Of a DNA stretch of 64,000 bases, positions 13,232 to 44,096 are shown in pieces; positions within the stretch are counted from its first letter, which is position 1, and the number at the start of each line of letters is the position of its first letter. Both the position numbers and the translations under genes were made by a program. The stretch comes from Blastopirellula sp. J2-11 (GTDB lineage Bacteria; Planctomycetota; Planctomycetia; Pirellulales; Pirellulaceae), in the NCBI RefSeq assembly GCF_024584705.1, contig NZ_CP097384.1:2294001-2358000 (forward strand), in the 5' to 3' direction. Under the pieces are notes generated by a model. That model searched no databases. It saw only the letters and a list, made by a program, of their open reading frames with translations, and was not told the origin of the DNA.

Positions 13232-14338
13232 ATGGCGAGTAAGAAATCCATCACCCGTAGAGCCGTATTGAAAGCCGCCGCGGCTGGCGTGTCGGGCGTC
13301 GTTGCCGGATCGGTCCTGTCAGGGGACGTCCATGGGGCAGATGCGAATTCGAGTGCAACTGCCGCAGATCCCAAGATCCGTGGCCCGTTTCCGATTTTGT
13401 CGACACCATTCACCGAAGATGGGCAGGTCGATTACGACGTCTTAGCGAAAGAAGCCAAGTTCGTCGCTTGGGCGGGGACGCCCGGCATGATTTGGCCCCA
13501 GTCTGGCGACAGCATCGATCTATTGACCACCGACGAAAAACGAAAAGGGATGGAGGTCCTCGCCGAGGCGACACGCGGGCTATCGACGGCCCTTTGTCTA
13601 GGCGTTCAGGGGAACGATACGGAAGAGATGCTGGAGTTTGCCGAGCATGCCGAAAAATTGGCGCCGGCGGCGATTATCTCGCGTCCGCCTGACTCGGGGA
13701 AGACGGAAGAAGATCTTCGCCAATATTGGCGCGCTTTGGCCGCGGTAGCGACTCGTCCGGTGATCCTGCAAACGACCGGCGGCGTCGCTTACAAAGGGCC
13801 GCTCCCTTCGCCGAAGCTGATGATCGAATTGGCGGAAGAGTTCCCGCACTTTGGATACATAAAAGAGGAAGCCGGCGACGTGCTAGGCCGGATGAAAACT
13901 TCGCTTGCAGCGCGGCCGCCGGTACGCCGCGTCTTCAGTGCACGCGGAGGAACGCATTGGGTCGAAGAATCACGACTCGGCTCCGAAGGGGTGATCACCG
14001 AACGTGCGGCGTATGCCGACGTGCTAACCCGCATCTGGGAATTACAGCAAAGCGGCGAAGATCCAGAAACGCTGAAAGACGTCTTCGGCAAGTTCCTGGC
14101 CATGGTCAAAGTGAAACCGGGCGGCCTGCGCGACGCCAACTTGTACATTTGGAAAAAACGGGGCGTCTTCAAGAACTTGGTTTCTCGCAATTATGGACCC
14201 GGCCGCTCCACTCCCACTTCGCCGATTGTTTCTGAATTCAAAATGAATGAAGAGAAGATTGCCGAAGTCGAGAAACGATTTGAGGCGCTGAACCCGTACC
14301 TGATTGAGGTAACGCCTGATTTATCTAAGCCGTCTTAG
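13232..14338 (+). CDS. Tat-exported dihydrodipicolinate synthase-family lyase
   Basis: About 368 residues. A twin-arginine signal SITRRAVLKAAAAGVSGVVAG precedes a DapA/NanA-type TIM barrel. GPFPILSTPFTEDGQVDYD opens the barrel, MIWPQSGDSIDLLTTDEK follows, and YIKEEAGDVLG carries the expected Schiff-base lysine. Family members make or split C-C bonds next to pyruvate (KDG, sialic acid, dihydrodipicolinate). Secretion argues against lysine synthesis and for sugar-acid breakdown. The start behind GAGGAG at 13221 is preferred over 13208. A GntR regulator lies upstream and an oxidoreductase gene 84 bp downstream. Confidence 0.85.
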   Translation: MASKKSITRRAVLKAAAAGVSGVVAGSVLSGDVHGADANSSATAADPKIRGPFPILSTPFTEDGQVDYDVLAKEAKFVAWAGTPGMIWPQSGDSIDLLTTDEKRKGMEVLAEATRGLSTALCLGVQGNDTEEMLEFAEHAEKLAPAAIISRPPDSGKTEEDLRQYWRALAAVATRPVILQTTGGVAYKGPLPSPKLMIELAEEFPHFGYIKEEAGDVLGRMKTSLAARPPVRRVFSARGGTHWVEESRLGSEGVITERAAYADVLTRIWELQQSGEDPETLKDVFGKFLAMVKVKPGGLRDANLYIWKKRGVFKNLVSRNYGPGRSTPTSPIVSEFKMNEEKIAEVEKRFEALNPYLIEVTPDLSKPS

Positions 14339-41953: not shown

Positions 41954-42790
41954 GTGTCAAGGAAGACGTCGGCGGACACAGATTCCCCCAACCAGCCATC
42001 GCTTGAAGAGCAAGTCGAAACGCTCAAACGACGACTGGCTGAAGCCCAAAAGTTCACCGCACTGGGTGAACTGATGAGCTCCACTACACACGAATTCAAC
42101 AATGTCCTGACTTCGGTCATCAACTACGCTCAGATGGGACTTCGCCATCAGGACGAAGCGACCCGCAATCGCTGCTTTGACAAAATTCTGGCCGCCGGAC
42201 AGCGGGCCGCGAAGATCACCACCGGCGTGTTGGGCTTGGCCAAAAACCGCAGTGATCGCCGCGAGCCGACCGATCTGGCGCCGCTGGTCAAAGACGCGAT
42301 CATGCTGCTGGAACGGGAGATGCAAAAGTATCGCGTCGAGTTGGACGTTCAACTAGACGACGTTCCCCCTGCCCTGGCGATCGGCAATCAGATTCAACAA
42401 GTGTTGCTCAATCTATTGATCAACGCTCGTCAGGCGATGCCCAAGGGAGGTCGTTTGGTCGTTCGCTTGTCGCATGACGCCGCAGAAGGCGTTGTCAGCT
42501 TGATGGTGCGTGATAGCGGTACTGGCATCCCGGCTGATCAATTGCCAAAAATTTTCGATCCATTCTTCTCGACGAAAAGTGGACCGGACGACAGCGGCAA
42601 GGGAGGAACCGGGCTGGGACTCGCGACTTGCCGCGATATCATCGAGGCGCACGAAGGGAAAATCCGCGTGCAAAGCACCGTCGGCGTCGGCACGGCATTT
42701 ACGATACGGCTTCCCGCGGTGAACCCGGTCGTGCCGCAAACAGTCATCAAACCTGCGGCCGTTGTGACTCCGTCGACCGCAACGCGATAG
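41954..42790 (+). CDS. Soluble histidine kinase without a sensor domain
   Basis: 278 residues from GTG 41954 (GGCAGGA upstream). A short coiled coil (SLEEQVETLKRRLAEAQKFTALGELM) leads into a dimerisation domain with His in TTHEFNNVLTSV, as in NtrB-like kinases. HATPase motifs are present: N-box VLLNLLINARQAMP, G1 DSGTGI, G2 GTGLGLATC. No membrane helix or input domain exists, so it must be driven by a partner. No receiver gene lies beside it. The aroF leader region begins ~70 bp after its stop. Confidence 0.85.
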   Translation: MSRKTSADTDSPNQPSLEEQVETLKRRLAEAQKFTALGELMSSTTHEFNNVLTSVINYAQMGLRHQDEATRNRCFDKILAAGQRAAKITTGVLGLAKNRSDRREPTDLAPLVKDAIMLLEREMQKYRVELDVQLDDVPPALAIGNQIQQVLLNLLINARQAMPKGGRLVVRLSHDAAEGVVSLMVRDSGTGIPADQLPKIFDPFFSTKSGPDDSGKGGTGLGLATCRDIIEAHEGKIRVQSTVGVGTAFTIRLPAVNPVVPQTVIKPAAVVTPSTATR

Positions 42791-42857
42791 GGAACAGATC
42801 GGAAGATGCGTCCCCGTTTGGACGTTTTCTTTACGATTCGTGAAGAATGCCATAGTG

Positions 42858-42888
42858 CCGAGCAGAACGACTTGCGTTCGCCGCTCGG
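42858..42888 (+). other. Hairpin upstream of the aroF leader peptide
   Basis: CCGAGC (42858-42863) with GCTCGG (42883-42888), and GAACG (42865-42869) with CGTTC (42875-42879), make a two-part 11-bp stem. It ends nine bases before the leader ATG and includes part of the only purine-rich stretch that could bind the ribosome. It might end the upstream kinase transcript or modulate leader translation. Confidence 0.5.
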
Positions 42889-42897
42889 ACAGTCATA

Positions 42898-42978
42898 ATG
42901 ACCAACATGATCGTGCGAAACAGCTACTTTTGGCAGTCCTTTACCTACTTTACCGGTGGGCCTGGAGGAGCTGCGTAG
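42898..42978 (+). CDS. aroF leader peptide (predicted attenuator ORF)
   Basis: A 26-codon frame, ATG 42898 to TAG 42976-42978, encodes a peptide with the run NSYFWQSFTYF. Within nine codons (42925-42951) there are three Phe, two Tyr and one Trp. This is the hallmark of a leader peptide that makes the ribosome pause when aromatic aminoacyl-tRNA is short. It is followed by a terminator and then by aroF, which encodes the first enzyme of aromatic synthesis. The ribosome-binding site is weak (CGGACAG), and a second in-frame ATG lies at 42907. Confidence 0.8.
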   Translation: MTNMIVRNSYFWQSFTYFTGGPGGAA

Positions 42979-43013
42979 ACGCACAATCGCTAATACGAGT
43001 CACTTTCAGGCCC
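42958..43013 (+). promoter_or_regulatory. Predicted antiterminator pairing of the aroF attenuator
   Basis: GGGCCTGGAGG (42958-42968), inside the last leader codons, can pair with CTTTCAGGCCC (43003-43013) over 11 bp, two of them G-U. The right-hand strand contains the first six bases of the terminator 5' arm, so the two structures exclude each other. A ribosome at the leader stop codon would cover 42958-42968 and allow termination; one paused at the aromatic codons would leave it free. Confidence 0.7.
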
Positions 43014-43043
43014 TGAACTTCCTTAGAAGTTCAGGGCCTTTTT
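43008..43043 (+). terminator. Rho-independent terminator in front of aroF
   Basis: AGGCCCTGAACTTC (43008-43021) and GAAGTTCAGGGCCT (43026-43039) form a perfect 14-bp stem with a four-base loop, followed by a T-run to 43043. It lies 40 bp before the aroF ATG and 29 bp after the leader stop, as expected for an attenuator. Confidence 0.92.
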
Positions 43044-43082
43044 CGTTTTCCTACAGCGTTTTTCAATCGGAGCACCCAGGCA

Positions 43083-44096
43083 ATGATCGTGGTAATGCAG
43101 CGTGGAGCCGGACAGCCGGAGATCGAACACATGGTAAAGCGAGTCGAAAATTTAGGACTGAAAGCGCACGTGATCGTCGGCGAGGAACGGACCGTGATCG
43201 CGGCGATCGGCGACAAACGCGCAGAGATGAAAGAGTCGCTGGAAAGCGGACCCGGCGTCGCCGCGGTGATGCCGATCCTGGCGCCGTACAAAGTTGCGAG
43301 TCGCGAAGTGAAACCGGAATCAACCCAAGTGGTCGTCCGCGATTTGAAAGTAGGCGCCGGTTCGTTGGGCGTGATCGCCGGACCTTGTTCGGTCGAAAGT
43401 GAAGAGCAACTGATCACGACTGCCCACGCGGTCAAAGCGGCTGGCGCGACGGCGCTGCGTGGGGGAGCGTTCAAGCCGCGCACCAGTCCTTACGCATTCC
43501 AAGGGATGAAGGAAGAAGGTCTGAAGCTGCTGGCCGCCGCTCGCGAAGAAACCGGCCTGGCGATCGTCACCGAAGTGATGTCTCCGGAAGATGTCGAGCT
43601 GGTCGCCAAGTACGCCGACGTGTTGCAGATCGGCGCTCGCAATATGCAGAACTATCGCTTGCTAGAAGCCTGCGGCCGTGTGGACCGAGCGGTGCTGCTG
43701 AAACGCGGACCGGCTGCGACGATTGACGAACTGCTGTTGGCGGCGGAGTACATTCTGAACGAAGGAAACCAGAACGTCATGCTGTGTGAACGAGGGATCC
43801 GCACCTTCGAGGCGCATACTCGTTTCACCTTGCCGCTGGCGACCGTTCCTTATTTGCACCAAAAGACCCACTTGCCGGTCGTGATTGATCCGAGCCACGG
43901 CACTGGGCACGCTTACCTGGTCGAAGACATGTGCGCCGCCAGCGTCGCCGTTGGCGCCGACGGATTGATCATCGAAGTTCATCCGAAACCGGAAGAAGCG
44001 ATGAGCGACGGCTATCAATCTTTGACGCTGCCGCAGTTCGCCCAAACGATGGCCAAATGCCGCAAAGTGGCCGATGCGCTGGACATCAAGATGTAG
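43083..44096 (+). CDS. aroF: 3-deoxy-7-phosphoheptulonate (DAHP) synthase
   Basis: 337 residues, type I-beta. An N-terminal ferredoxin-like regulatory domain (~1-75, [25 protein letters not shown]) precedes the barrel with [59 protein letters not shown] and [11 protein letters not shown], covering PEP, E4P and metal sites. It condenses PEP with erythrose-4-phosphate to start the shikimate pathway. In homologues the N-terminal domain mediates Phe/Tyr feedback. GGAG lies 10 bp before the ATG. An attenuator precedes it. Confidence 0.96.

Follow-up and report, generated by a model that had tools for sequence, protein, structure and literature searches.

In the planctomycete Blastopirellula sp. 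J2-11, transcription of aroF is very probably controlled by a ribosome-mediated transcription attenuator that senses phenylalanine, tyrosine and tryptophan together. The controlled gene (43083-44096 on the forward (+) strand of the 64-kb window, which is the whole stretch of DNA that was analyzed; all features of this locus given below are on the same strand) encodes a DAHP synthase, the enzyme that catalyses the first step in making aromatic amino acids, here with a ferredoxin-like domain at its N terminus (NF006421, TIGR01361, PF00793, PF18152), and is preceded by a Shine-Dalgarno-like GGAG (43069-43072). It is the only DAHP synthase found in the J2-11 genome, the sole other AroF-like match in that genome being a KDO-8-P synthase, and a search of nine genomes, J2-11 included, turned up no class II DAHP synthase. 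With a single enzyme serving three products, pooling of the three signals would make sense.

According to the proposed mechanism, RNA polymerase would begin transcription at ATG 42907 or immediately beside it, and a ribosome would bind the AUG at the 5' end of the emerging transcript. Scarcity of any aromatic aminoacyl-tRNA would stall the ribosome on codons in 42925-42951, leaving 42958-42968 free to pair with 43003-43013, so that the terminator would be blocked and aroF transcribed. With all three aromatic amino acids plentiful, the ribosome would reach the stop codon at 42976 and cover 42958-42968, the hairpin at 43008-43039 would form, and transcription would end near 43044. This model, built from sequence, predicts a translated leader, a 5' end at this place, stalled ribosomes, in vivo termination and regulation by amino acids.

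Leader frames and terminators upstream of aroF

The leader frame, its aromatic codons, the terminator, the co-varying pairing, the geometry and the promoter-to-ATG spacing are established by the sequence and by comparison among genomes. The original prediction placed a leader of 26 codons at 42898-42978 (ATG 42898 to TAG 42976-42978, translated as MTNMIVRNSYFWQSFTYFTGGPGGAA). The frame exists, but its start is probably ATG 42907: ATG 42898, judged too early, was rejected because it overlaps a conserved -10-like CATAAT and because the -10 spacing described below favours ATG 42907. On this comparative evidence, the preferred leader (42907-42978) would encode 23 amino acids, MIVRNSYFWQSFTYFTGGPGGAA. 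The other predicted elements are present: Tyr, Phe, Trp, Phe, Tyr and Phe codons within nine codons at 42925-42951 (TAC TTT TGG CAG TCC TTT ACC TAC TTT, encoding YFWQSFTYF); a perfect 14-bp terminator with a U-run, predicted from sequence and fold at 43008-43044, in which arms 43008-43021 and 43026-43039 enclose a 4-nt loop and are followed by TTTTCGTTTT, the start of a T-rich tail; and an alternative helix of 11 bp, including three G-U pairs, between region 2 (42958-42968, within the leader frame) and region 3 (43003-43013), which takes the start of the terminator 5' arm. Pairing comparisons, given below, support the assignment of regions 2 and 3 as antiterminator strands. The 196-nt region folds with a stability z-score of -3.67, one of 200 shuffles being equally stable. 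At the thresholds used, a frame with at least five aromatic codons in nine followed by a terminator has no other occurrence on either strand of the window. Elsewhere in the window (13598-13690, reverse (-) strand), the end of an Arg-rich frame has behind it a weak hairpin (-13.1 kcal/mol) that resembles a terminator, probably by chance.

When 60 related genomes were searched with AroF (E <= 0.001), 59 had a match, the weak ones including KDO-8-P synthases, and 49 had a copy at least 68% identical; at least 80 loci were on named contigs, and the best match listed was 83% identical, in a Blastopirellula metagenome bin. The relatives with aroF loci are planctomycetes, the setting that the original prediction had named. 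Removal of four duplicates from 110 loci left 106, and the leader-frame test covered 105 of these. A short frame with at least five aromatic residues in nine recurs in 62 of the 105 upstream regions (for example MRNYFYTYFWFFFSLRGRRAGGGI, MNLFAFSYFWFYFFTPPGERR and MTTLRSYYFYFWFFFTLAGRGEEGAM). As controls, such frames occur in 64 of 2100 dinucleotide-shuffled sequences, in 3 of the 105 regions read on the reverse strand and in 2 of 99 regions downstream of the gene. An enlarged set of 160 distinct upstream regions contains 92 such leaders; 90 have a terminator, and in 89 of these it begins 9-52 nt past the stop codon of the leader. A span of 13 codons around the cluster encodes Phe in all 92, Tyr in 87, Trp in 79 and all three in 74. 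The combined pattern of at least four aromatic codons in nine plus a terminator occurs in 99 of the 160 regions, with 4 of 800 shuffles and 1 of 160 reverse strands as controls; with at least five in nine, the counts are 89 of 160 real regions versus 0 of 800 shuffled. The conservation of aromatic codons anticipated upstream of aroF is thus observed. The other 61 regions fail the combined test; among the 160 are 13 regions from AroF copies of 50-56% identity (L174, L177, L179-L189), none of which has a leader and some of which are probably second copies. Some weak leader calls (L051, L101, L105, L106, L111, L178) may be false.

A chance frame was rejected on the low rates in shuffles, on reverse strands and within the window. 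The combined pattern was absent from all 129 other regions tested, comprising 20 upstream of a second aroF, 27 of trpE, 27 of hisG, 28 of ilvB and 27 of pheA (the last four from 30 loci each), and a general feature of aromatic or amino acid genes was rejected accordingly. The second aroF, approximately 50% identical, directly follows pheA in several relatives; none of its 20 regions (L130-L149) has a leader, and therefore the leader marks one particular aroF.

A kinase gene that ends at 42790 on the same strand as aroF raises the alternative that the hairpin is the terminator of that gene, or that the frame is a chance ORF beside a hairpin, with the promoter of aroF lying downstream. This is most improbable, given the low chance rates above and given that, of 106 loci, 6 have the kinase gene upstream of aroF, as do 5 of the 64 loci with a leader, while the leader and its terminator accompany aroF. 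After the kinase gene, at 42808-42825 and ahead of the leader promoter, lies a weak hairpin of 6 bp that resembles a terminator and is partly conserved in the genus; on this separate hairpin and the rarity of the kinase gene, assignment of 43008-43039 to the upstream gene was rejected.

By record names, leaders are found in Pirellulaceae, Thermoguttaceae, Lacipirellulaceae, Planctomycetaceae, Gemmataceae and Isosphaeraceae. Outside the class of the window, 11 of 34 fetched regions have a leader (L156-L189, one being too short to test), in families coded f51, f62, f65, f76, f83 and f84. In an AroF tree with 105 rows, of which 68 have a leader, the leader label requires 20 changes versus a mean of 30.7 when shuffled, and none of 500 shuffles was as low; one clade of 12 rows is without a leader (L053, L069, L083, L086, L088, L090, L093, L094, L096, L097, L100, L102). 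Common ancestry with losses is a plausible explanation of this distribution.

Codon choice in the leaders differs from that of the downstream aroF genes, which served as the yardstick in place of whole genomes: among 64 leaders (L001-L110), Phe is encoded by 168 TTT and 67 TTC versus 91 and 311 in the downstream genes, and Tyr by 58 TAT and 61 TAC versus 151 and 337. In theory, the choice among synonymous control codons affects the sensitivity of an attenuator (PMC1183508). Apart from the cluster of aromatic residues and the Gly-rich end, whose codons contain region 2, the leader peptides vary widely. Such divergence argues against the highly unlikely alternative that the leader peptide is itself a working small protein, or that the short terminated RNA acts in trans, with regulation of aroF being secondary, for which the trp attenuator RNA of S. 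meliloti and its peptide, both acting in trans, provide a model (PMC7298713). A small-protein or trans role may nevertheless be added to attenuation.

Promoter-like elements and the start of the leader

Upstream of the leader are a -35-like TTGCGT (42872-42877), which matches the sigma-70 consensus at three of six positions and is kept in four members of the genus, and, 16 nt further on, the -10-like CATAAT (42894-42899), which ends 7 nt before ATG 42907. Among these four members, GACTTGCGTTC upstream of the leader is conserved, and the sequence is almost invariant from approximately 42893 to the terminator while the flanks on both sides diverge; CTTGC is found at the -35-like position in many relatives. 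Across the 79 of 92 leaders that begin with ATG and have 50 nt upstream, a -10-like hexamer ends 6 nt before the ATG in 26 and 7 nt before it in 13, the other tested distances accounting for 0-6 each, and Shine-Dalgarno-like 4-mers precede 5 of the 79 leader starts versus 62 of the 79 aroF starts. ATG 42907 is the likely start of the leader, and transcription would begin there or right beside it; the leader is thus probably leaderless.

Alternatively, the RNA of the same attenuator could start further upstream and the leader be translated from a 5' UTR, from ATG 42898 or ATG 42907. A consensus promoter scan predicted no promoter at the leader, TTGCGT being below the scan threshold; the fixed spacing is present in only about half of the leaders, with 40 of 79 having no -10-like hexamer at 6-7 nt if none counts at both distances; and by eye, the hexamer next to the ATG is mostly a Pirellulales feature that was not seen in the low-GC family f62 or in several Planctomycetales leaders. 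Against these points stand the peak of -10-like hexamers at 6-7 nt, the conservation of promoter-like elements in the genus and the scarcity of Shine-Dalgarno-like 4-mers before leaders, which make an upstream start unlikely, though by no means negligible. In family f62 (L172, L173, L175, L176, L178), the aroF leaders are rich in Tyr and Phe and have terminators, with no clear promoter next to the ATG.

The upstream regions of other amino acid genes from the same genomes (26-28 of 30 loci per gene for leuA, trpE, hisG, ilvB and pheA, the rest being cut by contig ends or containing N) were searched for frames rich in the matching codons. For leuA, a frame with at least five Leu codons in nine was present in 21 of 27 regions versus 18 of 270 shuffles, and a terminator was called for 20 of these 21, although a few calls are unconvincing, such as the long, weak folds of L229 and L240. 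The leuA leader of J2-11 (L227), MPCISLLPLLLLTGHRPQGTA, has a terminator. No excess of matching frames was found upstream of trpE, hisG, ilvB or pheA. The leuA leaders (L220-L249) are a probable second attenuator family in planctomycetes. A leaderless start was rejected for them as there is no peak of -10 spacing, even though Shine-Dalgarno-like 4-mers precede only 3 of 21. It is slightly more likely than not that the aroF leaders represent an old attenuator family of Planctomycetota in which a leaderless ORF pools the charging signals of three aromatic tRNA families to control a DAHP synthase, with a Leu version before leuA; ribosomes would then bind the 5' AUG of the emerging RNA while the polymerase is just clearing the promoter.

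Antiterminator pairing and ribosome position

If region 2 is an antiterminator strand, it should pair better with the terminator arm of its own locus than with that of another. For 57 of 62 loci (L010, L042, L055, L061 and L075, with odd terminator calls, were omitted by hand), the mean pairing energy was -21.95 kcal/mol with the own arm versus -17.46 (sd 0.39) kcal/mol with swapped arms, and none of 5000 permutations reached the own-arm value. These partner swaps and shuffles count related loci as independent, except in a set of 36 representatives with less than 80% AroF identity, for which the values were -21.18 versus -16.94 (sd 0.50) kcal/mol and none of 10,000 swaps did as well; with partners matched for GC content and length, the representatives gave -20.46 versus -16.69 kcal/mol. 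Compared with shuffled region 2 sequences, the mean z-score over 89 of 90 loci was -2.63, with p <= 0.05 in 59 and p <= 0.01 in 36. Thus, region 2 pairs best with its own arm, and within each lineage the antiterminator strand has kept pace with the terminator, which is the compensation that the original prediction anticipated for the alternative helix. This antiterminator is exclusive with the terminator and conserved through compensation, as in ribosome-mediated attenuators. A 1:2 (anti-antiterminator) helix is strong in the fold of the window and weak over the loci (mean z -0.87); some accepted ribosome-mediated attenuators do not have one.

The effect of ribosome position was modelled for the same 89 loci on RNA folded before the terminator 3' arm is made, with the ribosome edge assumed to lie 13 nt beyond the point where the A-site codon begins. 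Mean occupancy of the terminator 5' arm was 0.67 with the ribosome stalled on aromatic codons versus 0.18 with the ribosome at the stop codon, a difference that exceeded 0.2 in 81 of the 89 loci and was reversed in none. In the window, stalls at 42925, 42928, 42931, 42940, 42946 and 42949 permit antiterminator folds of -28.9 to -14.9 kcal/mol, and with the ribosome at the stop codon only a hairpin of -2.3 kcal/mol remains; under the assumed 13-nt edge, the geometry of stall and stop is that of a ribosome-mediated attenuator. When the complete RNA is folded to equilibrium, the terminator is favoured whether the ribosome is stalled (0.84), at the stop codon (0.96) or absent (0.93). Equilibrium folding by itself thus fails to yield the switch, which would have to be kinetic.

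RNA that carries no ribosome also shows occupancy of the 5' arm (0.59) before synthesis of the 3' arm. The terminator and the alternative helix, taken by themselves, would be consistent as well with a non-ribosomal device (a riboswitch, a T-box or an RNA-binding protein) that sets the terminator beside an incidental frame, and free RNA can form the antiterminator. Such a device is very unlikely, for it would have no need of nine-codon aromatic clusters placed before the helix or of the bias toward TTT, and a known Rfam RNA family was rejected on the lack of any match at gathering score in the window, the best match near the leader scoring a non-credible 18.7 bits against a threshold of 50. This sub-threshold match, to the Pseudomon-1/ErsA sRNA at 42907-43052 (+) with an E-value of 0.19, starts exactly at ATG 42907, probably by chance. 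Attenuation by a translating ribosome, as in the original prediction, is supported by the recurrence of the leader, the distance from its stop codon to the terminator and the compensation in the helix.

Comparison with known attenuators

The unusual cell plan of planctomycetes has raised doubts about the coupling of transcription and translation. If the aroF leader acts as proposed, the two processes are coupled on these planctomycete genes, classical attenuation extends to another phylum, and the locus offers a compact system where a single ORF combines the signals of three amino acids, probably with no Shine-Dalgarno sequence at its start. Several amino acid inputs in one leader are known from ilvGMEDA.

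Classical ribosome-mediated attenuators include trp, his, leu, thr, ilvGMEDA, ilvBN and pheA of E. coli and Salmonella (PMC1183508). The aroF leader resembles them in having a leader ORF with control codons for the products of the pathway, mutually exclusive antiterminator and terminator, and the position of the ribosome as the switch; it differs in pooling three aromatic amino acids, in its occurrence in Planctomycetota, in its probable leaderless start and in its weak 1:2 helix. Other literature on attenuation and leaders was consulted for comparison (PMC4833913, PMC3937554, PMC2965389, PMC1262725, PMC3847290, PMC3160421). No planctomycete amino acid attenuator is described in the passages searched of the cited attenuation papers, and a literature search, with subscription papers mostly beyond its reach, located no paper on leader-peptide attenuation in Planctomycetota.

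The original prediction named Proteobacteria as the setting of such attenuators, a scope that is too narrow for aroF, leaders of which have already been proposed in Corynebacterium and Acholeplasma (PMC4046766, PMC8632094). The aroF gene (cg1129) of C. glutamicum has a putative attenuator leader with Phe-Tyr-Phe (PMC4046766, PMC3890552), which precedes a DAHP synthase gene as in planctomycetes but belongs to another phylum, and the passage that describes it names no Trp codon and no structure. The uORFC-13-1 motif is likewise a short ORF plus terminator, found exclusively upstream of aroF (PMC8632094); its description names at least one Phe residue and places it in the genus Acholeplasma and in unassigned environmental sequences. 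Attenuation of aroF was also hypothesized for E. coli and Shewanella, citing a paper of 1980, but with Tyr-tRNA as the only signal (PMC2659441, PMC8632094). Leaderless leader ORFs are described for trpL of S. meliloti (PMC7298713), ilvBNC of C. glutamicum (PMC11857589) and the polycysteine sORFs of mycobacteria (PMC13236596). These three systems have the control ORF at the 5' end of the RNA, as proposed here, but sense Trp, branched-chain amino acids or Cys in other phyla, and the 5' end of the aroF leader is placed by inference. The class of mechanism is known, and what makes the aroF leader a new variant is the phylum, the proposed pooled sensing of aromatic amino acids and the probable leaderless start.
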